Virus record (IMG/VR): IMGVR_UViG_3300033144_002593
Span: 1 to 28,264 of that record
DNA from: a virus
Reading direction: 5' to 3' (one strand)
Length of the DNA: 28,264 nt
In this document: positions 3 through 15,613 of the stretch, piece after piece
Position numbering within the stretch: position 1 is the stretch's first letter
Layout of the letters: every line of letters starts with the position of its first letter
Notes under the pieces: model-generated
Seen by the model: the letters and a program-made list of their open reading frames with translations, nothing else
The model's database searches: none
What the model was told of the DNA's origin: nothing
Position numbers and translations under genes: made by a program

Positions 3-1145
3 AACGCCAACGGACAGACTCGTAGCGGATTATATTCTTTGTTCATACCTATGGAATGGAATTACGAAGGATACATTGATTCTTATGGCTTACCTGTCTT
101 CGACACACCAAAAAAACCTGTTGATGGACCGCATGGGGAAAAAATTAAAATAGGTGTAATAGAATATTGGGAGAATGAAGTAGAAGGACTAAAGCAAGAT
201 CAAGATGCTTTAAATGAATTTTATAGACAGTTTCCACGTACTGAAAAACATGCTTTCAGAGATGAGTCTAAAGAGTCTTTATTTAATCTAACTAAAATAT
301 ATCAACAAATAGATTTTAATGAAGACGCAAAAAATGAATTAGCAATAACTACTGGTAGTTTTCAATGGGAAGACGGTCAAAAAGATACTAGAGTTATATT
401 TATACCAAATAAACACGGTAGATTTAATATAACTTGGGTTCCACCATTACATTTACAAAATGTTAGATATATGAAAAATGGTATAAATTATCCAGGCAAT
501 GAATCTTTAGGTGCTTTTGGATGTGATCCATACGATATATCAGGAACTGTAGACGGTAGAGGATCAAAAGGATCTTTACACGGTTTAACAAAGTTTACAA
601 TGGAAGACGTGCCTCCACACCATTTTTTCTTAGAATATATAGCTAGACCACAAACAGCTGAAATATTTTTTGAAGATGTACTTATGGCTTGTGTGTTTTA
701 TGGTATGCCTATATTAGTTGAAAATAATAAACCAAGGTTATTATATCATTTTAAAAGACGTGGTTATAGAGGTTTTGCAATGAACAGACCTGATAAAAAA
801 AGAAATAAATTATCTGTTACAGAAAGAGAAATAGGTGGTATACCTAATTCAAGTGAAGATATTAAACAAGCTCATGCAGCTGCAATTGAAACATACATAG
901 AACATTTTGTTGGTTTACTTGAAAACGGATATGGTGATATGTATTTTCAAAAAACACTAGAAGACTGGGCTACTTTTAATATTAATAACAGAACAAAACA
1001 TGATGCATCTATTAGTACAGGTTTAGCTTTAATGGCTTGTAATAAGCATAGATATATGCCTCAACAAAAAAGACAAACAAAATCTGTAGATTTAGGTTTT
1101 AAAAAATACGACAATCAAGGAATTACATCAAAAATTATAAGTTAA
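3..1145 (+). CDS. Terminase large subunit, C-terminal part (5' end outside window)
   Basis: The large terminase is the packaging motor and headful nuclease that docks on the portal. The reading frame is open from base 3 to the left edge, reading NANGQTRSGLYSLFIPMEWNYEGY, so the gene starts upstream; the TTG at 39 is not a convincing start. The ATPase half is missing from the window. What remains fits the RNase H-like nuclease half: a first acidic site in GCDPYD (Asp codon at 525), a middle block with LMACVFYGMPILVENN, and a late HDASISTG block (His-Asp at 999-1004) typical of the end of the nuclease domain. The stop TAA is directly followed by the portal ATG, so the two are translationally linked. 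The family call rests on motif recognition and on the adjacent portal gene. Confidence 0.88.
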   Translation, partial: NANGQTRSGLYSLFIPMEWNYEGYIDSYGLPVFDTPKKPVDGPHGEKIKIGVIEYWENEVEGLKQDQDALNEFYRQFPRTEKHAFRDESKESLFNLTKIYQQIDFNEDAKNELAITTGSFQWEDGQKDTRVIFIPNKHGRFNITWVPPLHLQNVRYMKNGINYPGNESLGAFGCDPYDISGTVDGRGSKGSLHGLTKFTMEDVPPHHFFLEYIARPQTAEIFFEDVLMACVFYGMPILVENNKPRLLYHFKRRGYRGFAMNRPDKKRNKLSVTEREIGGIPNSSEDIKQAHAAAIETYIEHFVGLLENGYGDMYFQKTLEDWATFNINNRTKHDASISTGLALMACNKHRYMPQQKRQTKSVDLGFKKYDNQGITSKIIS

Positions 1146-3536: not shown

Positions 3537-3540
3537 CTGT

Positions 3541-3571
3541 ATTATTAATTATTTAATTATATTATATTATG
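3541..3571 (+). repeat. AT-only leader repeat, copy 1
   Basis: A 31-base stretch ending in the ATG of the putative scaffold gene. It recurs at 6289-6319 in front of another head gene with one mismatch (T here, C there, at the ninth base). Apart from the G of the ATG it is purely A and T. Its placement at the same distance from two starts suggests a shared promoter or translation leader; which of the two cannot be told from sequence. Confidence 0.7.
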
Positions 3572-4774
3572 TCAGAAGAAACAAAAACAAATGAACCTGT
3601 TAAGCAGGAAGGTGAGTTTAGTTTAAAAGGTAAAAAAACTAAACCAAAACAATTAACAAAAAAAGATAACGAAGTAAAAAAAGTAGTTATTAGTCCTAAA
3701 GAACCTCTATTAGAAGTTGAGGATAATGTTAAAAAAGTAGAAATTAAAAAAGAAGACAATGCCATTCAAATCGGAGAAACAGAGAAGGTATCTGTGGAAG
3801 AACCATCCGGAGATAGCACAGAGGTGGGAGAACCTGTACAAGAGTCCAACGAGACTACTGAAGGGTTTTCTCCGATCAAAGAAGTAGTTGAAGAAGATAT
3901 AGTAACAGAGCAAGAAGTTAAAGAAGCTATTAGAGATGAAAAAGTTTTAGGTAAGCAATTACCTGAAAACATTGAAAAGCTAGTTACTTTTATGGAAGAA
4001 ACTGGTGGTACAATAGAAGACTATACTCGTTTAAACGCTGATTATTCAAATATTGATGACAAAGCATTGTTAAAAGAATATTATAGAAAAAATAAACCTT
4101 ATTTAGAAGGTGAAGATATTGATCTTTTGTTAGAAGATTTTTCATATGATGAAGAATTAGATGAACCAAAAGACGTACGTAAAAAGAAAATTGCGTATAA
4201 AGAAGAAGTTGCAAAAGCTAAAAGCTATTTGGAGGAATTGAAAGTTAAATATTACGACGAAATCAAGTTGAGACCGGGCGTAAATCAAGAACAACAAAAA
4301 GCATTAGACTTTTTCAACCGATACAATAAGGAGCAAGAACAAGCTGAGCTTAAGCATGAAAAATTTAAAGCCAATACTAAAGAGCTTTTCAATGAAAATT
4401 TCAAAGGTTTTGATATTACAGTTGGAGATAAAAAATATAAGTATAATGTGCAAAACGCTAAAGCTCTTGCTGATAAACAATCAAACATTAATAATCTGTT
4501 AGGGAAGTTCCTAGACGCAGATGGAAATGTTGCTGATACAAGTGGTTATCACAAAGCTATGTATGCTGCTGAAAATGTAGATCGCATTGCCGCTCATTTT
4601 TATGAACAAGGAAAGGCTGATGCAGTTAAAGATGTTGTTAATAAATCAAAAAACTTGTCTGACTCTAAAGCTAGATCACAGCAAGGTGAGGTTTATATAA
4701 ACGGCCTTAAAGTTAAATCAATTAGTGGTGCTGATTCTACAAAACTTAAAATAAAAACAAGAAAATTTAACTAA
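3569..4774 (+). CDS. Putative head scaffold or capsid assembly protein
   Basis: This 401-residue protein lies between portal and major capsid genes, the usual place of a scaffold. Residues 1-125 are nearly all Lys, Glu, Thr, Val and Pro and look disordered; residues about 130-300 are strongly charged with long helical stretches (KEEVAKAKSYLEELKVKYYDEI); the end (GLKVKSISGADSTKLKIKTRKFN) is basic and could bind the capsid inner face. There are no catalytic motifs. A segment at 3761-3880 inside the disordered part has clearly higher GC than its flanks. The ATG at 3569 is set by the repeated AT leader ending on it. The scaffold role is an inference from position and composition; an inner-capsid decoration protein is an alternative. 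Confidence 0.6.
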   Translation: MSEETKTNEPVKQEGEFSLKGKKTKPKQLTKKDNEVKKVVISPKEPLLEVEDNVKKVEIKKEDNAIQIGETEKVSVEEPSGDSTEVGEPVQESNETTEGFSPIKEVVEEDIVTEQEVKEAIRDEKVLGKQLPENIEKLVTFMEETGGTIEDYTRLNADYSNIDDKALLKEYYRKNKPYLEGEDIDLLLEDFSYDEELDEPKDVRKKKIAYKEEVAKAKSYLEELKVKYYDEIKLRPGVNQEQQKALDFFNRYNKEQEQAELKHEKFKANTKELFNENFKGFDITVGDKKYKYNVQNAKALADKQSNINNLLGKFLDADGNVADTSGYHKAMYAAENVDRIAAHFYEQGKADAVKDVVNKSKNLSDSKARSQQGEVYINGLKVKSISGADSTKLKIKTRKFN

Positions 4775-6254: not shown

Positions 6255-6295
6255 TAATAATAACCTCCGTCTTCGGGCGGGGGTAATTATTATTA
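6255..6295 (+). terminator. Strong UUCG hairpin after the capsid gene
   Basis: Starting 10 bases after the capsid stop, CCTCCGTC pairs with GGCGGGGG around a TTCG loop (6272-6275), 8 bp including two G-U pairs. The stem continues as A-U pairs: TAATAATAA (6255-6263) pairs with T6284 and, after a 3-base bulge, TATTATTA (6288-6295). There is no run of T after the stem, so it may be a terminator of a type that does not need one, or a 3' stabiliser of the abundant capsid mRNA. It is the only GC-rich stretch in this gap. Confidence 0.75.
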
Positions 6296-6319
6296 ACTAT
6301 TTAATTATATTATATTATG
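6289..6319 (+). repeat. AT-only leader repeat, copy 2
   Basis: Thirty of 31 bases match the leader at 3541-3571, and again the repeat ends exactly on an ATG. Its first seven bases also form the 3' arm of the hairpin at 6255-6295, so the hairpin and the leader are mutually exclusive in part. It is probably a promoter or translation leader for the gene at 6317. Confidence 0.7.
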
Positions 6320-7135
6320 GCTAAAAAAGCTAAAGCAGAAACTGTTGAGGTTGCACCTCAAGAGGTTGCAGTAAAAACTGCACCAAAACCAACTAAAGAA
6401 AGTTGGGAAATTAAAGATAGAATGTATTACCTAAGAGGTAATAAAACACCTTTAACTCACACTATACCTGGTAAACATACTAAAAAACACTCTTTATTAT
6501 ATTTTGATAAAGCATCAGGTAAACAAAGAGAAATAAGATATGCAACAAATCAAGACTCACCTCTTGTTGATGAACAACATGGAGAGTGTACTATGGGGCA
6601 TATTATATTTAGAGATGGTAAACTTGTAGTACCTAAAGAAAAACAAAATTTACAAAAATTACTTTCACTGTATCACCCCGCAAAAGGTAAGTTATATGAA
6701 GAGTATAGCGCTTTACAAGAAGCTACTGATGATTTAGATATTTTAGATCTTCAAATTGACGCTTTAAATGCAGCTAGATCTATGGATATAGATTTTGCAG
6801 AAGCTATTATGAGAGTAGAATTAGGTTCTAAAGTTACAAGTATGAGTTCAAAAGAAATAAAAAGAGATTTATTATTGTTTGCTAAAAACAATCCTAAACT
6901 ATTTATATCTTTAGCTAACGATGAAAATGTTCAACTTAGAAACTTTGCCATTAGAGCTGTTGAAGCAGGTATAATAAATATATCAGCTGATCAAAGAGCT
7001 TTTACATGGGGTTCTAATGATAGAAAATTAATGAACGTACCTTTTGACGAAAACCCATATTCTGCATTTGCAGCTTGGTTAAAAACTGATGAAGGTGTAG
7101 AAGTTTATCGATCTATAGATAAAAAACTTAATTAA
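6317..7135 (+). CDS. Conserved phage head-region protein of unknown function
   Basis: This 272-residue protein starts with a Lys, Ala, Pro and Val-rich, probably flexible tail (1-30), then a beta-rich part (DRMYYLRGNKTPLTHTIPG, about 34-105) and a long helical part. I recognise the later blocks AEAIMRVELGSK, LRNFAIRAVEAGII and FTWGSNDRKLMNVPFDENPYSA as typical of proteins located just after the capsid gene in marine flavophages, but I know no function for them. It has no catalytic motif or membrane segment. Position suggests a head completion, decoration or regulatory protein of head assembly. It sits alone between two hairpins and behind its own leader repeat, so it may be expressed at a level separate from the capsid gene. 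Confidence 0.7.
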   Translation: MAKKAKAETVEVAPQEVAVKTAPKPTKESWEIKDRMYYLRGNKTPLTHTIPGKHTKKHSLLYFDKASGKQREIRYATNQDSPLVDEQHGECTMGHIIFRDGKLVVPKEKQNLQKLLSLYHPAKGKLYEEYSALQEATDDLDILDLQIDALNAARSMDIDFAEAIMRVELGSKVTSMSSKEIKRDLLLFAKNNPKLFISLANDENVQLRNFAIRAVEAGIINISADQRAFTWGSNDRKLMNVPFDENPYSAFAAWLKTDEGVEVYRSIDKKLN

Positions 7136-7193: not shown

Positions 7194-8132
7194 ATGGCAG
7201 TAAACGTAAATACAGTATACAAAACAGTCTTATTAATTACTAATAAAGAGCAAAGAGGTTATTTAACACCAACTGAATTTAATAGTTTGGCAAATCAAGT
7301 TCAATTAGAAATTATAGACGGTTATTTTGAAACTATTAATCAACAAACACGTGTATTGCAAAATGAAACAGAATATGCTAATAGATTAAAAAATGCTCAA
7401 GAGCAGTTAGACATATTTAAAACAATAGGCACGTGCACATATACAGCTCCTACAACGACCGCCCCTGGTTTTTTCGATGTTCCAGCTTCTTCAGGAACAC
7501 CAAGTGCTGTGCAAAATTTTAGTACAGTAGGAACCCAATCAACATACGCATTAACTACTATAACACAAGCACAAGTAGACACAAGTACAGTTATTGTTAC
7601 TTATTTAGGCGCAGTATATTCTTCGCAAAATTATTCTATAACTGGTGGTCAACTTATATTGTTAAATGGTAACTTGCCTACGGGTAATCCTAATAACTTA
7701 GTAATTACTTTATATCCTAATGATTTTTATAAATTAGGAACTGTACTATATAGAGATGATAGAGAAGTAGAGCAAATTCAAAGAAATGAATTAGCTATGT
7801 TAAATTTATCTCCTATAAGTAAACCTACTGATTATTTTCCAGTTTACTTATATGAAAACAAAAGAATAACTATTTACCCACAAACAATTAATAGTAATGT
7901 ACAAGCAACATATTTAAGAAAACCAGCAGATGTAATGTGGAATTTTACATCGGCAAATGGTTATTATGAATATGATAGTACTGGATCTGTAGATTTTGAA
8001 TTAGACGATACAGAGCAAACAAATATTATTTTAAGAATATTATTTTACGCTGGAGTTGTAATTGAAGACAGAACAGTTATAGAAGTTGCTGCCGGTGAAG
8101 TTGCTAAAGAAGAACAAAATAAAAGAGCATAA
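7194..8132 (+). CDS. Putative connector/ring (head-to-tail adaptor) protein
   Basis: This 312-residue protein is probably one of the ring proteins stacked under the portal. Residues 1-75 are helical (LTPTEFNSLANQVQLEIIDGYFETINQ), a block I associate with a conserved protein in this position in flavophages and crAss-like phages. Residues about 114-176 are a beta-rich insert (STYALTTITQAQ to LVITLYPND) resembling beta modules in the next two tail genes. The remainder (YKLGTVLYRDDREVEQIQRNELAMLN to the end) returns to mixed alpha/beta with a helical C terminus. The stop TAA shares a base with the next ATG, indicating translational coupling to its likely ring partner. The functional label is inferred from position and partial family recognition. 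Confidence 0.65.
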   Translation: MAVNVNTVYKTVLLITNKEQRGYLTPTEFNSLANQVQLEIIDGYFETINQQTRVLQNETEYANRLKNAQEQLDIFKTIGTCTYTAPTTTAPGFFDVPASSGTPSAVQNFSTVGTQSTYALTTITQAQVDTSTVIVTYLGAVYSSQNYSITGGQLILLNGNLPTGNPNNLVITLYPNDFYKLGTVLYRDDREVEQIQRNELAMLNLSPISKPTDYFPVYLYENKRITIYPQTINSNVQATYLRKPADVMWNFTSANGYYEYDSTGSVDFELDDTEQTNIILRILFYAGVVIEDRTVIEVAAGEVAKEEQNKRA

Positions 8133-9376
8133 TGAGTTTAATAACAGAAACAAATCAACAATATTACGCTGGATCTCAAGGCTTCAGAGGCGACGTAGGC
8201 AATACACAAAATCAAAAATTTGTTACTAGTTTTAATACTGATTTAAAAATGGGTAGTTCAACTAGTTGGAGTACAAATGACCCTGATTATGTTTTAAACA
8301 ATTTTAAAGTATATACAAGTGCTACAGGTTTAGCTGGTTCTTGGAACGAGTGGATAACAGAAATGTCTGTTGCATTAGACGGTAAAACTTTAACTTTAGT
8401 TGCAGCGCCAGGTGCTAATGTTTATATAGTTGTACAACTAAAATCACTTAGCGGTGGTAAGTATGGACAAACAGATGTTGAAAGAGCTTTTGGTGAAACT
8501 GTAGAAAACAATTACGGAGGTTATGCTTATTTAAAATTAAACGATATAGTTAGTAATTTTTTAGTAGGTTATGTAGGCAAAGACAAACTTATACCTGATG
8601 TAAAAAGAACTGATGTTATATTTCATGCTAAAAGAGGCTTGCAAGAGTTTAGTTATGATACTTTAAAAAGTATTAAATCATCTGAATTAACTGTACCTGA
8701 GTCACTATCTTTAGCAATACCACAAGACTACGTAAACTATGTTAGTCTTTGCTATATAGATAGTTTTGGAATAAAAAGACCTTTATACCCAAATAATAAT
8801 TTAACAACAAATCCTTATTATACTTTTTTACAAGACAGTGCTGGTGTGCCAATACAAGATAGTCACTCTGAAAACACTGAAGGTACTTCTATTACTGTTG
8901 AAAGATGGGGCGACGCTAATGTTAAGTTAATAAATGGTCAATGGTACGAAAATTATGAAAACTTTGGCTACGCTTGGGATAATTATGGTTTAAATGGACC
9001 GTTTAACTGGGGTAGACTATATGGTTTAGATCCACAGTATTCACAAGCAAACGGTTGGTTTGGCATAAATGAAAGAGATGGTAAGTTTACTTTTTCTAGT
9101 AATGTAGTAGATAAGTTAATTGTTTTAGAATATGTATCTGATGGATTAGCTTATGACATGGACACTAGAGTACCTAAGATGGCCGAGGATGCACTTTATG
9201 CTTATATACTATATAATATACTATCTACACGTCCTACTACTCAGGAATATATAGTTCAAAGATTAAAAAAAGAAAAAAGAGCTAAGCTTAGAAATGCTAA
9301 AATAAGATTATCTAACATTAAACTTGATCAAATAGTACAAGTTATGCGAGGTAAGTCTAAATGGATAAAACACTAA
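8132..9376 (+). CDS. Putative tail tubular/ring protein
   Basis: A 414-residue structural protein. Residues about 20-112 form a beta-rich N-terminal module. The core begins near residue 131 with YAYLKLNDIVSNFLVGYVGKD and continues through DVIFHAKRGLQEFSYDTLKSI and LAIPQDYVNYVSLCYIDSFG; I recognise this as a very common structural protein of marine Bacteroidetes phages, in the same neighbourhood as the tail tubular protein of short-tailed phages. The C terminus (QRLKKEKRAKLRNAKIRLSNIKLDQI) is basic and helical. It overlaps the previous gene by one base and its stop lies in the leader of the giant tail gene. Name and role as a tail ring are inferred; the family recognition is stronger than the function. 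Confidence 0.68.
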   Translation: MSLITETNQQYYAGSQGFRGDVGNTQNQKFVTSFNTDLKMGSSTSWSTNDPDYVLNNFKVYTSATGLAGSWNEWITEMSVALDGKTLTLVAAPGANVYIVVQLKSLSGGKYGQTDVERAFGETVENNYGGYAYLKLNDIVSNFLVGYVGKDKLIPDVKRTDVIFHAKRGLQEFSYDTLKSIKSSELTVPESLSLAIPQDYVNYVSLCYIDSFGIKRPLYPNNNLTTNPYYTFLQDSAGVPIQDSHSENTEGTSITVERWGDANVKLINGQWYENYENFGYAWDNYGLNGPFNWGRLYGLDPQYSQANGWFGINERDGKFTFSSNVVDKLIVLEYVSDGLAYDMDTRVPKMAEDALYAYILYNILSTRPTTQEYIVQRLKKEKRAKLRNAKIRLSNIKLDQIVQVMRGKSKWIKH

Positions 9377-9385
9377 AATTAAATG
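9374..9385 (+). promoter_or_regulatory. Shine-Dalgarno-free start leader TAAAATTAAATG
   Basis: The stop TAA of the upstream gene, an A/T spacer and the ATG of the 1633-residue tail gene form a 12-base unit that recurs exactly at 15615-15626. A-rich bases just before the ATG without AGGAGG are the pattern known from Flavobacteriia ribosomes, whose anti-Shine-Dalgarno tail is hidden. Confidence 0.45.
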
Positions 9386-12300
9386 GCAGAAGGTAAAAAT
9401 AGTTTCATCAAGTCTAAAATGAATAAAGACTTAGATGAAAGATTAATTCCAGGCAACGAATATAGAGACGCAACAAATATAGCTGTATCTAGATCAGAAG
9501 CAGGAGACGTTGGAGCTTTAGAAGCTATTTTAGGTAATGCCTTAGTTGGTAAGTCAATTCAAGGTGGTGAAATAATAGGTTATTTTGTAGATAATACAAA
9601 TTCTATTGTTTATTATTTTGCAACAACACATAGTGGTACAGCTACAGCACCTACAACAGCTATATGTGGTGTATATGCTATAACTTTAGGCGAAAACTCA
9701 GGCGCTATTCAGCAATTAGTTTATGGTAGTTGGTTAAATTTTTCACAATCAAATCCTATAACAGGTGTAAATTTAGTAGAAGATTTATTATTTTGGACTG
9801 ATAATAGAAATCAACCAAGAAAAATAAACGTTAATCAAGCTTCTAACAATGCTTCATATTATACTAATGAAGATCAAATATCTGTAGCTAAATTCGCTCC
9901 TTATATAGCTCCTGAATTTATAAACTTAAGAGATACTGAAACAAATTGGTATGGCTCACCTGATTTAAAACCGTCAACAATGAGTGACGCGTCTGATCCA
10001 TCTACAGTTAGAGCTCAAATATACGACGTCTCTAATTCTAATTTAGCAGTAACCAAATACAGAAATGGTGACACTATTGATGGACCTATATTTACACAAG
10101 CTCAATGGGTTGCTAAAGATGCAGCGCAAGAAGGTGCTTACTGTGTTTATGAAGATTATGACGGTAATAAAGTTACTTATGGTGTATTATATAATAAATG
10201 GGCTGTAATTGATTCTAGAGGTTTAGCTCCTATAGGTTTTAAAGTACCTAATTTAACTGAGTGGACTGCAATAGCAAACTCCAACTCAATGACACAACAA
10301 AAAAGTATTAACTTTTGGGCTAACAACCCAGGTAATAATTTATCTGGATTAAACGTTAAACCAGGTGGTTACAGAGTAGCGGCATCAACTAATAATGATT
10401 TTGTTGATATAACATCAGCAGCTTACTATTGGACCAGCGACGCAGCTGCCGGAGCAAATACACCTTTTGTAAAATATTTAGATACAACAGCTGCTACAGC
10501 TGATGTATCAGGACAGACAGACACTAAAGCAGGTATGTCTGTAAGAGTTGTAGCAGATTCAAGTCAAAACTATGAAGGTTGGAATGGTGACGAAGACTTT
10601 TTAACTGAAAAATTTGTAAGATTTAGTTATAGATTTAAATTTGATGATAATGAATATTCTGTAGTAGCACCTTTTAGTCAAGATGTTTTTATACCTTATC
10701 AAGAAGGTAAGTTTGTTAATGATGATGAAAATCAAGCTTTTATATCTACAGTTGTAGAGTTTATGTCTAACTCTGTAAACAACGCTGTGTTAAATATAAC
10801 TTTACCAGCAATAGATATAATAACAAAATATAAAGTAAAGGCTATTGATATAATATTCAAAGAATCAGATAAAATACAATATCAAGTGTTAGAGTCTATT
10901 ACTGTAGATCAAGACTTTATAAGTGCATTAAATAATACTAATATATATCAATATAATTATCAATCAACTATACCTATAACTACTTTACCGTCTTTTGAAA
11001 CTACAAGAGTTTTTGATAAAGTGCCTGTGCAAGCATTAGCACAAGAGGTTACAGGTAATAGAGTTATGTATTCTAATTATTTAGAAGGTTGGACGGCTCC
11101 TACAGGTTTAGATTATTATGTTACAGTTGATACAAAAAGTCAACAACAATTTACAGAGTATCCTCAACATACTTTAAAACAAAATAGAAATTATCAAGTT
11201 GGTGTTGTATTAGCTGATAAATACGGTAGACAAACTGATATAATTCTGTCAAACCAAGATGCTGTATTAGACTCAGAAGGAAGACCTCAAGCGGGATCAA
11301 ATGTTTTTAGTGAATACAAGCCTTTGTCTTTTGCTCCAAATGTAGATGCATGGACAGGTGATACACTTGAAATAAATTATTTACAACCTATACCAGAAGA
11401 TCCATCAGGTAATTATCCTGGTGCTTATGCGTATGGTAATTATTTTACTGTAATACATGAAAACGCTACAAATGCTAGGTATCCATATTTTTGGTCAAAA
11501 AGCTATCAATATTTTACAGCTACAACTAACCAAACAGTTTTTACAACTCAAGCAATCGACTATGCTGACTCTCAAGGCAGCAATAACACATTAAGTGTTT
11601 ATGTTAATAGTGGAGATGGATATGTAGAGCAAGCTACAAATACTTATACTGTAAGCAATGTTACTAATACAGTAACTATAACTTTTAATGCTGCACCACC
11701 TTTAAATTCAAATGTAAAAGTACAGTTATTATATACAGTTTTCAATTTATATAAATATGAAACAGGATCTGCAGATAGTCAAAGACCTTTGTTTCCAGAT
11801 TTTGTAACTAATTCTGCTACATATTTTTCAGAAGGTAAAGCGTTAAGAGGTCAATATTGTGATTATACAAAAATTAGAGAAGCTACTACTACATCTGATT
11901 TAAACGGTGTTTATAAAGTTGAGTTTACAACATTTGATGAAGTAAACAAAAGTTATCTATATAATGGAGCACCTACAACTAGACCTGAACCTAATTTTCC
12001 TGTAGGTACAGAAGAAACATTTGCAACATACGATATAAATGTTAGAGGTTTTTATAGTTATAGATTTGGTGTAAAACAAATAGAACAAGATTATTATAAT
12101 GTTTATTTACCTGGTTTAATAAACGGTTATCCAATAGATACATCTACACTTGAACAAGATGAAATTGGTTTTACTACATTAGTATCTGATAATATAAATA
12201 AACTACCTAGAGATTTACAAGCAGTAGGACCACAAGATAATCAATTTACTAGTGATGCTAGTTTTTTCCCAAGAGTATCTAACATGGTTTTTGTTAATTC

Positions 12301-14284
12301 TGCTCCAGTTGGATTTTTTACTACCAACCAACAAGTTTATCCTAATTCATCTCCTGATGATGTAGAATTAATAGGTACTGTTAATGATTTATTTCCTGCT
12401 GATGCAGATGGCACTGCTGCTCCTACTTTAAATGAATTTTCAATATACGATGAAACTTCAAAGCCTTTATTAGCAAAGTTTTCAACGCAACAAAGATTAG
12501 GTGTAACTGAAGCACAATATACAACGCCTCAACAAGGTAATGGTAATTATCCTTATCCACCTAACTTAGGTTTAGCTGTATTAGAAACAACTCCTTTTAT
12601 ATCACCTTTAGAATTATTTTATGAAACTTCTACTAGTGATTTAATTTCACAATTAAATTTAGATGTTACAAATGTAAGCACTGACATAACAGGTAATACC
12701 TGGGCTAGTGCTATAAAAGAACTTAGTGAAAATGATCCTATAAACTCTATTGTAACAAGTTATTTTTACCCAACAGCAGGTGGACAACAAGTAAACACAG
12801 CAACGTGTGAAATATTAAGTATATTCTCTAGAAGTTATCCTACTGATGTTATAGATACAACTATAGATTATGGTCCTAATGGTAGTAATAGATTAACACT
12901 TGTTTCCAATGGAGCAGGTGGTTATGCGGTTAAAACATTAGATACTTTTTACGCTGGTAATGGTGCTGCGGGTGAGTCGCTTTATGACGTAGCAACAAGA
13001 GGTAATTTTCAATTAAATATTAGATGGACTCAAGCTAATGGTACAACAGTAGATCAAAGCATAGATTTGCAATTAGCAAATAACGATCCAGAAGTTTTTA
13101 ATGTGCCTGCGACATTTGAAGTTCCATCTACTTCAACACAAATAATAGTAGGAAGTACAAGTAATAATGCTTTTAATTCTCCATTAGGTTGGAATGGTTG
13201 TGCTGCAAATACAGGTAGTTTACAAGCAGCTCACCCATCGGATAACTCTGTAACATTTAATAATTCTGGGTATACTGTTTTAAGTGTTACTAAAACTGGA
13301 GGTCCTAGCAACACCACAACTTTCTATGGTATTTTAGACACAACTGGTAATAATCCTATATCAGATATTTTACAAGGAACAAATGGTGTTGTTTTTCAAA
13401 ACAATCAATTATTCCCTGCGACTCCAAACACAAACCCAAATTATAGAACTTTTTCTATGTCTTGTGTAAATACTGTAGGTAATGAGCCTGGGTATAGTTA
13501 TTGTGTTGATATGAGGTTGACAGATTCATTAGGAGCTGCAACAGATTTTAGTTTTTGCTACACTGTAGGTACTCTTGATTTTACAGGTCAAGTTATTGCA
13601 ACACCTTATCAAATAGCTGCTAGTAGTGGTGGTAGTGGATATGATCAAGTGCCTCGTAAAAATTTCCCAAATAGTGGTAATATTTCACAAAACATGACTC
13701 AAATAACTGGAGGACCAGGTTATACGCTGCCAAAATGGATAGGTCAAATTCAAAATTGGACTACTAATACTGTGTATGTTTGGGGAGTTACAACACCTGG
13801 ATCAGGTGCTGGAGGTTCTTCTGGTACTGCTACTTTTCAAGGTTCTACTGGTGGAACTAGAGCAGATGGGTCTACTACAAACGTATTTAATAGTTGGTCA
13901 AGTTCATATAGCTTAGCTAATCCTAGTAATCAATTTGTTTCTTTAATGATACTTTCTCCGTTTACTCCTAATGCTGGACAAATAGCAGCTGGCGTAAGAC
14001 CAGGACAAAAATGTACAAATGGTGCTGCTTGTGCAGGTGGTGCAAATTATGATTTTAGCGGATGCGCAGTTGTTAACTATGAAATAGCTTGTTCTCAGAT
14101 ATTTACAGGAGCTACTTTTACTGTTTCATGGAATACTTCACCTGTTAATCCACCGCAGAATACAACAGCTGTAGACAATGTAGCAAACAGTTTACCACCT
14201 TTTTATCCTTCAGCTGATGGTACAAGCGTAAGTACACCTAGTGAACGTTGGCAAACTGTTACTCCAGTAGCAGCTGGACCATAA
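9383..14284 (+). CDS. Giant tail protein (stabilization/muzzle-like) with inserted FISUMP domain
   Basis: This 1633-residue protein should form the outer tail and host-facing surface. Its start, NSFIKSKMNKDLDERLIPGNEYRDATNI then EAILGN, is a signature I know from the large tail stabilization proteins of flavophages and crAss-like phages. Residues about 215-392 form a nearly complete FISUMP (Fib_succ_major) domain: NLAVTKYRNGD, YGVLYNKWAV (266-274), RGLAPIGFKVPNLTEWTAI, YYWTSD (348-353) and GMSVRVVAD at the end. Residues about 710-784 form a beta module like those in the two preceding genes. The C-terminal third is Gly, Ser, Thr and Asn-rich, with eight cysteines between 1273 and 1570, against four in the first 1272 residues. 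FISUMP domains are known mainly from cell-surface proteins; binding of host surface material is inferred. Confidence 0.75.
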   Translation: MAEGKNSFIKSKMNKDLDERLIPGNEYRDATNIAVSRSEAGDVGALEAILGNALVGKSIQGGEIIGYFVDNTNSIVYYFATTHSGTATAPTTAICGVYAITLGENSGAIQQLVYGSWLNFSQSNPITGVNLVEDLLFWTDNRNQPRKINVNQASNNASYYTNEDQISVAKFAPYIAPEFINLRDTETNWYGSPDLKPSTMSDASDPSTVRAQIYDVSNSNLAVTKYRNGDTIDGPIFTQAQWVAKDAAQEGAYCVYEDYDGNKVTYGVLYNKWAVIDSRGLAPIGFKVPNLTEWTAIANSNSMTQQKSINFWANNPGNNLSGLNVKPGGYRVAASTNNDFVDITSAAYYWTSDAAAGANTPFVKYLDTTAATADVSGQTDTKAGMSVRVVADSSQNYEGWNGDEDFLTEKFVRFSYRFKFDDNEYSVVAPFSQDVFIPYQEGKFVNDDENQAFISTVVEFMSNSVNNAVLNITLPAIDIITKYKVKAIDIIFKESDKIQYQVLESITVDQDFISALNNTNIYQYNYQSTIPITTLPSFETTRVFDKVPVQALAQEVTGNRVMYSNYLEGWTAPTGLDYYVTVDTKSQQQFTEYPQHTLKQNRNYQVGVVLADKYGRQTDIILSNQDAVLDSEGRPQAGSNVFSEYKPLSFAPNVDAWTGDTLEINYLQPIPEDPSGNYPGAYAYGNYFTVIHENATNARYPYFWSKSYQYFTATTNQTVFTTQAIDYADSQGSNNTLSVYVNSGDGYVEQATNTYTVSNVTNTVTITFNAAPPLNSNVKVQLLYTVFNLYKYETGSADSQRPLFPDFVTNSATYFSEGKALRGQYCDYTKIREATTTSDLNGVYKVEFTTFDEVNKSYLYNGAPTTRPEPNFPVGTEETFATYDINVRGFYSYRFGVKQIEQDYYNVYLPGLINGYPIDTSTLEQDEIGFTTLVSDNINKLPRDLQAVGPQDNQFTSDASFFPRVSNMVFVNSAPVGFFTTNQQVYPNSSPDDVELIGTVNDLFPADADGTAAPTLNEFSIYDETSKPLLAKFSTQQRLGVTEAQYTTPQQGNGNYPYPPNLGLAVLETTPFISPLELFYETSTSDLISQLNLDVTNVSTDITGNTWASAIKELSENDPINSIVTSYFYPTAGGQQVNTATCEILSIFSRSYPTDVIDTTIDYGPNGSNRLTLVSNGAGGYAVKTLDTFYAGNGAAGESLYDVATRGNFQLNIRWTQANGTTVDQSIDLQLANNDPEVFNVPATFEVPSTSTQIIVGSTSNNAFNSPLGWNGCAANTGSLQAAHPSDNSVTFNNSGYTVLSVTKTGGPSNTTTFYGILDTTGNNPISDILQGTNGVVFQNNQLFPATPNTNPNYRTFSMSCVNTVGNEPGYSYCVDMRLTDSLGAATDFSFCYTVGTLDFTGQVIATPYQIAASSGGSGYDQVPRKNFPNSGNISQNMTQITGGPGYTLPKWIGQIQNWTTNTVYVWGVTTPGSGAGGSSGTATFQGSTGGTRADGSTTNVFNSWSSSYSLANPSNQFVSLMILSPFTPNAGQIAAGVRPGQKCTNGAACAGGANYDFSGCAVVNYEIACSQIFTGATFTVSWNTSPVNPPQNTTAVDNVANSLPPFYPSADGTSVSTPSERWQTVTPVAAGP

Positions 14285-14317: not shown

Positions 14318-15613
14318 ATGAGTGTTTCTATAAAGCTAAAGTATTATAACTCTTACATGTTAAAGAAGATAAATAGAGTCGGTATTTCGTCTTTATATGA
14401 TTGGTATGTAGAAGAATCTAGAATAAAAGGTGGTTTTAATAATGTGCAAACAGGCTTAGCTCCAAGAGCTTTTTTAGCTTCAGAAAACAATGCGCAAAAA
14501 TCTAGACCTTCTTCTATAATGTATTCTGGTATATTTAACTCTAGAACAGGTATAAATCAAACAAATGTTTTTCCTTCAGGTGAGGAAATAACTAGAACTG
14601 TAGATCCTTCTAAAGGCTCAATACAAAAACTTTATGCAGAAGATACTAATTTAACTATATTTCAAGAAAGAAAAGTTAATAGAGCTTTAATAGATAAAGA
14701 TGCTATATATACTCAAGAAGGTCAACCAGTTCAAACCGCATCTAATGTTGTTATTGGTGCTATTACACCTTATTTAGGTGATTGGGGTATTAGTAGAAAC
14801 CCTGAAAGCTTTGCTGTATATGGTTATAATAAATATTTTACAGACAAAGATAAAGGTGCTGTGCTAAGATTAGGTAATAATGGTATTACTGAAATATCAT
14901 CATTTGGTATGTATGATTATTTTAGAGATGCTTTTGCTAATATGTCTGATGATAAAGTTAGAGCAGGTTGGGATATTTACAACAAATGTTATACAATAGC
15001 TTTATTTGAGCAAAATAAATTTAACCAAGGTGAATTTACAACATTAAATTTTGATGAAGCAATAAATGGTTGGGTAAGTAGATATAATTATTTACCAAAT
15101 CAAATGTTTAGTGTGCAAAATAGATTTTATAGTACATACGAAGCTGGTGTTTATCAACATTATTCTAACAATGTACCTAGAGCTACTTTTTATGGTAATG
15201 CTCAAAACGGTAGTACACAGTCAACAGTAACTACTGTGTTTAATCAACAACCATCATTAGTTAAAAGATTTAGAACTATAAACTATGAAGGTGATAACAA
15301 TTGGTCGTTAAGCAGTTTTATTACAAGTGATAATGATACCGTAACATCTATAGCAGCGCCTGTAGTTCCTACAACTTTAGCTCAAATGGATGCTCAATTG
15401 TTACAAAATATATTTAAACCAAAAGAAAATAAATACTTTGCTAATCTTATAAATAGTTCATCTGCTGTTCAAGGTGAAGTTATTTATGGCGGTCAAGTAT
15501 CTGGTGTAAAAGGATTTTTTGCTACAGCAACATTTGCTGCACAAAATGATGCTAACACAGGTAAAAATGAATTATTTGCTGTATCTACAGAATACAACGA
15601 ATCATCTTATTAA
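14318..15613 (+). CDS. Tail protein, C-terminal partner of the giant tail protein
   Basis: A 431-residue structural protein. I recognise EESRIKGGFNN, IMYSGIFNSRTGINQTNVF, KLYAEDTNLTIFQERKVNRALIDKD, WGISRNPESFAVYGYNKYF and GITEISSFGMYDYFRD as blocks found in the C-terminal half of large tail stabilization proteins of flavophages and crAss-like phages, where I recall them in one chain with the sequence that starts the gene at 9383. Here they are a separate gene, 33 bases downstream in the same frame-independent operon. It is probably a beta-propeller-like or muzzle component; I see no enzyme motif. The first residues (MSVSIKLKYYNSYMLKKI) could be a fresh start near an old fusion point. The ATG follows the A/T-rich AATAATAATAT. 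Confidence 0.68.
   Translation: MSVSIKLKYYNSYMLKKINRVGISSLYDWYVEESRIKGGFNNVQTGLAPRAFLASENNAQKSRPSSIMYSGIFNSRTGINQTNVFPSGEEITRTVDPSKGSIQKLYAEDTNLTIFQERKVNRALIDKDAIYTQEGQPVQTASNVVIGAITPYLGDWGISRNPESFAVYGYNKYFTDKDKGAVLRLGNNGITEISSFGMYDYFRDAFANMSDDKVRAGWDIYNKCYTIALFEQNKFNQGEFTTLNFDEAINGWVSRYNYLPNQMFSVQNRFYSTYEAGVYQHYSNNVPRATFYGNAQNGSTQSTVTTVFNQQPSLVKRFRTINYEGDNNWSLSSFITSDNDTVTSIAAPVVPTTLAQMDAQLLQNIFKPKENKYFANLINSSSAVQGEVIYGGQVSGVKGFFATATFAAQNDANTGKNELFAVSTEYNESSY

Follow-up and report, generated by a model that had tools for sequence, protein, structure and literature searches.

The question raised by this locus is how a domain of the FISUMP family (Fib_succ_major, PF09603), which is held by cellular genomes, came to lie inside a tail protein of a virus, and what it does there. 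The window, i.e., the whole stretch of DNA analyzed, corresponds to a 28,264-base IMG/VR record; it encodes a terminase part, a portal protein, further structural proteins, a 1633-aa ORF (9383..14284, plus strand, like the other window features written in this form below), a 431-aa ORF and a short-tail-fibre-like protein in this order, with a 3003-aa ORF further on. The FISUMP domain had been proposed in the 1633-aa tail protein by first-pass annotation, and PF09603 indeed matched its residues 219–390 (70.6 bits, E 2.7e-19, cut-off 33.9) and, on the DNA of the record, positions 10037–10552 (77.4 bits, E 2.4e-23). The same search gave matches in one of 14 control genomes, that of Bacteroides ihuae; PHROGs gave no match to the FISUMP stretch. 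Translation of the block originally delimited, 10025–10559, yielded the motifs quoted for it, and its borders were right within a few residues; an alignment of 21 relatives and an AlphaFold2 model gave a slightly longer inserted module (about residues 199–399, about 9977–10579).

Regarding the protein itself, the 1633-aa ORF is a muzzle of the crassvirus type (tail-tip gate), with an N-terminus homologous to gp44 of phicrAss001 in sequence and fold. It was matched by phrog_14478 (virion structural protein), with the best stretch at residues 5–187 (E 7.9e-47). The downstream 431-aa ORF (14318..15613) matched positions 919–1233 of the same phrog and contained the crAss_MUZ_C domain (PF25729; 29.4 bits, cut-off 27), and is the C-terminal part of the muzzle encoded separately. 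An insert-free family profile aligned over residues 1–172 to gp44 1–177 (hhalign, E 3.2e-8, against a single-sequence template); by the sequence profile alone, the alignment to gp44 stopped before the insert and none was obtained beyond it. Structures were predicted for residues 1–580 and for the FISUMP stretch. The model of residues 1–580 was weak (mean pLDDT 68.2, pTM 0.43); its two top VIA-align matches were the phicrAss001 muzzle (7qol_P: Z 11.9, rmsd 4.6, 195 aligned residues, model 57..530 versus gp44 65..278), and the next row was an unrelated propeller with Z 9.2. Foldseek returned nothing at E 0.001 or better for this model, with 7qol_P outside the first 50 matches, and PDB sequence searches gave no match.

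In the domain layout of gp44 given in the available part of Bayfield et al. 2023 (PMC10172136), Ig1 comprises residues 163–292 and lies between propeller blades 2 and 3. Because the VIA-align alignment runs past the insert to gp44 278, FISUMP is placed after blade 2 and ahead of Ig1: residues 1–170 (9383..9892) are the equivalent of propeller blades 1–2 by hhalign and VIA-align, and about residues 405–575 (10595..11107) form the Ig1-like domain, positioned by the structural alignment of model residue 530 with gp44 278. The position first suggested, after a conserved N-terminal part, was therefore sustained and made more precise. Replacement of gp44 Ig1 by FISUMP was ruled out, since the structural alignment continues beyond the insert to gp44 278.

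The window muzzle resembles gp44 (PMC10172136, as excerpted) in N-terminal sequence and fold, in the position among the tail genes and in the family of the muzzle C-terminal domain. It differs in consisting of two ORFs with about 200 residues inserted, whereas gp44 is one chain with, by eye, a short linker before the Ig1 strand. The named matches belonged to phages of Flavobacterium, Cellulophaga, Tenacibaculum and Maribacter. The closest named N-terminal homologues were those of phi38:1, filed under Pervagoviridae, and of Flavobacterium elemo phages, with 31–34% identity and the same gene order; Pervagoviridae are placed near Crassvirales by predicted structures in the portion of the source available (PMC9855967). 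The crAss_MUZ_C domain was present in phi38:1 and elemoF as in the window, and was not found in MW202828. A muzzle divided over two ORFs was seen in the window and in all 57 first-scan loci whose C-part could be located, versus a single ORF in phi38:1, elemoF and MW202828. In one locus (L018, 10001–14921), the N-terminal muzzle ORF broke off after 859 residues, with a second open frame of about 755 codons behind it.

The block is also an insertion relative to the named homologues, as had been supposed: 239 residues separate the conserved anchors in the window versus 24 in phi38:1, 23 in MW202828 and 25 in elemoF, so that the site is nearly empty in the phi38:1 and elemo muzzles. Among 36 representatives without FISUMP, the anchor-to-anchor length was 23–25 residues in these three named phages, 54–59 in four, 100–117 in 22 and 150–256 in seven; further relatives carried up to several hundred residues at the site, as measured with looser profile borders. 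Much of the group of 100–117-residue inserts was alike. BLAST grouped 29 of these 36 inserts together, an outcome probably due in part to border text that they have in common, while L071 with L077, L073, L078 and the three named phages stood apart; Pfam gave nothing above cut-off for 19 of the non-FISUMP inserts. Because relatives carry other sequence of varied length here, the loop between blade 2 and Ig1 is a hotspot of insertion. A Gly-rich block of about 70 residues was nested within FISUMP in L014, L024 and L037, and similar Gly-rich text was seen by eye at the site in L073, L292, L307 and L317, which lack FISUMP. The last 350 or so residues of the 1633-aa ORF (1280–1633, 13220..14281) had clear homologues only in muzzles with the FISUMP insert: 28 of these were matched, none of the others scored better than E 0.029, and all 22 rows of the tree built for this C-terminal tail carried FISUMP.

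The inserted module is predicted to have a C-type-lectin fold. The AlphaFold2 model of FISUMP alone (9977..10579) had a mean pLDDT of 90.6 and a pTM of 0.87. VIA-align listed 34 rows for it, the first 33 at Z 5.0–7.8, each single value (below 8) being within the background of the tool, under its caution level; row 34, with Z 2.3, was a ribosome chain. The first 33 rows are C-type-lectin-fold proteins, and about half of them are entries of one enzyme, the formylglycine-generating enzyme (FGE). The InvE adhesin, Treponema TvpA, Legionella Lcl and phage Mtd were among the matches, and Mtd was also the best Foldseek match (E 0.22). BFVD yielded three viral proteins with E under 0.001, of which two carry the domain in their annotation, and a Microcystis phage also carries a FISUMP; therefore, the presence of FISUMP in phages was already known. 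A full-text literature search found no work on FISUMP, by that name, in phages, or on Fib_succ_major in muzzle or tail proteins.

We analyzed the distribution of the domain in several scans, each keeping the best 80 matches, so that the proportions are not population frequencies, and several loci across the scans represent the same contig. FISUMP was found in 36 of the 78 loci listed in the first muzzle scan, always inside a muzzle ORF (36/36), and in 11 of the 80 loci listed in the scan by the muzzle N-terminus, some of which were too short to show it. The FISUMP-only scan of viral sequences listed the best 80 of 189 relatives, all of them muzzles. In cellular genomes (best 80 of 320 relatives), 69 of the best 80 loci belonged, by record titles, to Bacteroidota, Chlorobiota or Ignavibacteria, which bears out the assignment of the family to cellular genomes; one locus, L085, was a phage muzzle. 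Cellular FISUMPs of Bacteroidota, Chlorobiota and their allies share the domain with the window at 31–38% identity among 29 aligned; their frames were single-domain in 92 of 95 cases (one of the 95 being a phage muzzle), and 21 of the 25 frames listed were shorter than 320 codons.

On the tree of muzzle flanks, the presence of FISUMP required one change, separating 29 representatives with it from 36 without (support 100); for these 65 rows, 20 of 157 sequences had been dropped as short or not splittable by text anchors. The larger tree of 125 representatives, delimited by profile borders since text anchors failed on 40 of 80 loci, and with 15 of 237 sequences dropped as too short, again required one change (33 with, 92 without, support 100), and every sampled representative of the clade (33/33) carried FISUMP. 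Identities of the insert followed those of the flanks (r 0.83, 0 of 5000 permutations, 29 rows). The phage copies formed a group of their own: one branch with support 99 split 30 phage FISUMPs from 97 bacterial ones. Because the label changes once on the muzzle trees and the phage copies stand apart from the bacterial ones, these trees indicate a single old gain of FISUMP, by the ancestor from which a diverse muzzle class descends, with retention ever since; the donor was probably a Bacteroidota surface protein. The capture of a host surface module by this phage, as first suggested, thus stands insofar as a domain of a cellular family was inserted; the domain is not private to this phage, was gained once in an ancestor and follows its flanks by descent. 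Recent private capture was ruled out by the single old gain on the muzzle trees. Swapping of FISUMP alone between close strains was considered and dropped, since other parts of the locus differ as much or more; in the L026 and L200 groups the insert differed by 3.2% versus 0.4–1.1% in the immediate flanks. About 510 bases directly upstream of the muzzle in L172 were absent from L180 and L184.

C-type-lectin-fold domains are known targets of diversity-generating retroelements (DGRs). According to the available parts of the papers cited here, FISUMP or DUF1566 proteins are DGR targets in Bacuni phages, and in Bacteroides phages such targets are linked to tropism (PMC8143477). Human microbiomes likewise have DGR targets with FISUMP or the related DUF1566 (PMC4159848), and crAss-like phages diversify C-type-lectin tail-fibre or receptor-binding proteins in this way (PMC12386605, PMC11054128). 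Our module resembles the domains of these receptor-binding or target proteins in its predicted fold, the Bacuni ones being of the same Pfam family or a relative. However, the systems in those excerpts comprise separate fibre or target proteins together with a reverse transcriptase, whereas here FISUMP lies in the muzzle, and not at the gene end, as the reading as a DGR target would have it. RVT_1 was found in none of 17 related contigs, possibly incomplete, and in none of the 16 window ORFs scanned with Pfam, and no repeat family of the window touched the FISUMP stretch, although a template could sit outside the window. The ratio of replacement to silent codon changes was 0.36 in the insert, between 0.49 upstream and 0.17 downstream (206 non-independent pairs). 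On the codon ratios, the RVT_1 search of these contigs and ORFs and the repeat search of the window, a hypervariable DGR target was set aside, and we give it very little credence.

The pN/pS ratio was below 1 in every region of the muzzle. Summed over 20 pairs, it was 0.28 in the C-half of FISUMP (95% interval 0.19–0.39), 0.154 in the N-half, 0.18 in the propeller part, 0.089 in Ig1 (the lowest value) and 0.213 in the rest of the muzzle; out of 2000 bootstraps, the C-half came out above Ig1 and above the N-half in every one, above the propeller part in 1994 and above the rest of the muzzle, from which it does not clearly stand out, in 1883, and after removal of the most divergent pair it stood at 0.232 versus 0.208 for the rest of the muzzle. 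Compared with the adjoining Ig1, evolution of the C-half of FISUMP is thus about three times as fast.

The family was also found at other tail positions. PF09603 search of 21 contigs gave one copy each in 17, namely in all 16 with the muzzle insert and in one of the five without it. In the latter (contig of L066; L327 1747–3852), FISUMP occupied residues 509–665 of a 701-aa tail-fibre-like protein with tail PHROG matches; it scored 35.3 bits against a cut-off of 33.9 and was missed by the FISUMP profile built here. Among 39 further contigs without the insert, two carried FISUMP towards the C-terminal end of the muzzle ORF, where the coordinates put it in the same frame as the N-terminus, so that 3 of 44 contigs lacking the muzzle insert had the domain elsewhere. 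The C-terminal muzzle copies did not join the main phage clade with support (support 0), and their lack of a supported placement is compatible with either independent capture or relocation.

These observations bear on whether the insert is a structural or stabilizing module of the muzzle, which would clamp subunits together or act close to the cargo channel and make no host contact. Its presence in all 33 representatives of the clade and its descent together with the muzzle flanks fit a fixed structural role too, as do purifying selection throughout the muzzle and 19 columns invariant across phage and bacterial copies. At the same time, related muzzles have 23–25 residues or other sequence at the site, the C-half outpaces Ig1 as described above and the same family ends a tail-fibre-like protein in a relative; on balance, we consider a purely structural role unlikely.

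The history of the muzzle was compared with that of its neighboring genes. On quick trees, the FISUMP label changed five times each for the terminase part, the portal, g401, the 484-aa gene and g272, twice and three times for the two virion structural genes directly upstream of the muzzle (7194..9376; 312 and 414 aa; phrog_14543 and phrog_13977), which we take from their position to be ring proteins, and six times for the downstream gene g238. Four segments of the muzzle required one change each, with supports of 85, 98, 93 and 99, and so did the 431-aa ORF, with a support of 100. A separate quick portal tree of 49 rows gave four changes; the short-tail-fibre gene (15 rows, two changes), g366 (only four rows) and the 3003-aa gene (none) offered too few rows to use. 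In AU tests, a FISUMP clade was rejected by the portal (p 7.6e-36; 18 of 53 rows with FISUMP, thinned from 73 labelled loci with a near-full portal, with phi38 and elemo left out), by the 484-aa capsid-position gene (p 1.6e-4) and by downstream g238 (p 7e-4), and was neither supported nor clearly rejected by the ring-position genes (312 aa, p 0.16; 414 aa, p 0.0547). Three concatenated muzzle segments, on the contrary, recovered the FISUMP clade with 100/100 (20 of 49 rows), and the muzzle rejected the group defined by the portal (p 6.5e-85, 20 of 40 rows).

On these trees, both muzzle ORFs share one history and the tested genes on either side another. The FISUMP clade is rejected by the tested head genes and the downstream gene but supported by the muzzle, so that the pair of muzzle ORFs was seemingly exchanged between lineages, as a tail-tip cassette apparently swapped among phages that differ in their heads. 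Instead of a moving muzzle, transferred head genes, chimeric assemblies or model error could also have produced the conflict. The trees carry no direction of transfer, and are compatible with head-gene transfer; the ring-position genes are intermediate between the two histories, the relatives on these trees are metagenome contigs, the AU tests of the conflict used LG+G4 with no mixture model, and two of the four muzzle segments back the FISUMP clade only at 85 and 93. Against this stand the consistent counts (five changes for each of five head genes and one for each of five muzzle parts, with six for g238 downstream) and the rejection in both directions, by head genes and by the muzzle; moreover, chimeras would not be expected to recur at the same boundary across many samples. 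These alternatives therefore appear somewhat doubtful, and movement of the muzzle is retained in what follows.

Regarding function, we consider it fairly likely that FISUMP is a module binding the host surface at the tail tip, beside the gate. In this reading, the muzzle is the tail-tip gate, as in crassvirus-like podoviruses. The ancestor of one muzzle class acquired the domain in a single event, with a Bacteroidota surface protein as the probable donor, in the loop that joins blade 2 of the propeller to the first Ig-like domain, and its descendants retained it. By analogy with the hexamer of phicrAss001, six copies would be exposed at the tail tip of each virion. Their most likely target would be a glycan or protein on the outside of Bacteroidota cells, and they would position or trigger the gate, with a possible effect on host range, and the pair of muzzle ORFs would pass as a cassette between phages with different heads. 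A tail tip with FISUMP that appears to have moved between lineages, with other or almost no sequence at the site in relatives, fits a part involved in host recognition. Adhesion and an effect on host range gain indirect support from the conflict between the muzzle and head-gene trees, from the faster change in the C-half of the domain and from the FISUMPs at other tail positions in three relatives. In the excerpts of Bayfield et al. 2023 (PMC10172136), gp44 forms the tail-tip gate, the crassvirus muzzle is thought to touch the cell and open the gate, and insertions are reported in its crass and IG2 regions, with no mention of the loop between blade 2 and Ig1. A short-tail-fibre gene near the muzzle (phrog_12032) is a rival candidate for the receptor binder.

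C-type-lectin-like domains bind diverse ligands, and FISUMP might instead bind free or algal polysaccharide or shed surface layers, keeping the virion near its prey and not setting the host range. The family receives one mention in a paper on surface proteins of F. succinogenes and cellulose adhesion (PMC4619616). However, the domain lies in a tail-tip protein and not on the capsid, and its history is shared with the muzzle gate; a non-receptor ligand is thus rather improbable, and host-surface binding is preferred.

In its broadest form, which we put forward tentatively, the proposal is that the muzzle is an exchangeable cassette for receptor recognition: a loop beside the gate would take up alternative modules, one class would have gained a bacterial-type domain of lectin fold, and phages that differ in their heads would have handed whole muzzles on to one another. 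Tropism would then depend on the gate itself as well as on fibres, and FISUMP would have been taken up at further tail positions within this phage family too. A modular loop bearing a lectin-fold domain beside the gate is a candidate for host recognition, and the muzzle class might predict the host better than head-gene taxonomy does. The locus shows a cellular surface-protein family in the tip of a virion tail, and the contigs and ORFs searched gave no sign that a retroelement diversifies it.

The host of the virus is probably to be sought among aquatic Bacteroidota. The contig L085, which carries a muzzle of this class, was binned in a Flavobacteriaceae MAG, a hint at Flavobacteriaceae as the host family. 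Additionally, an AT-rich repeat of 50 nt, possibly a promoter or leader, was found in the window at 3540–3589 and 6288–6337; the two copies are 84% identical and span the gene starts at 3569 and 6317.
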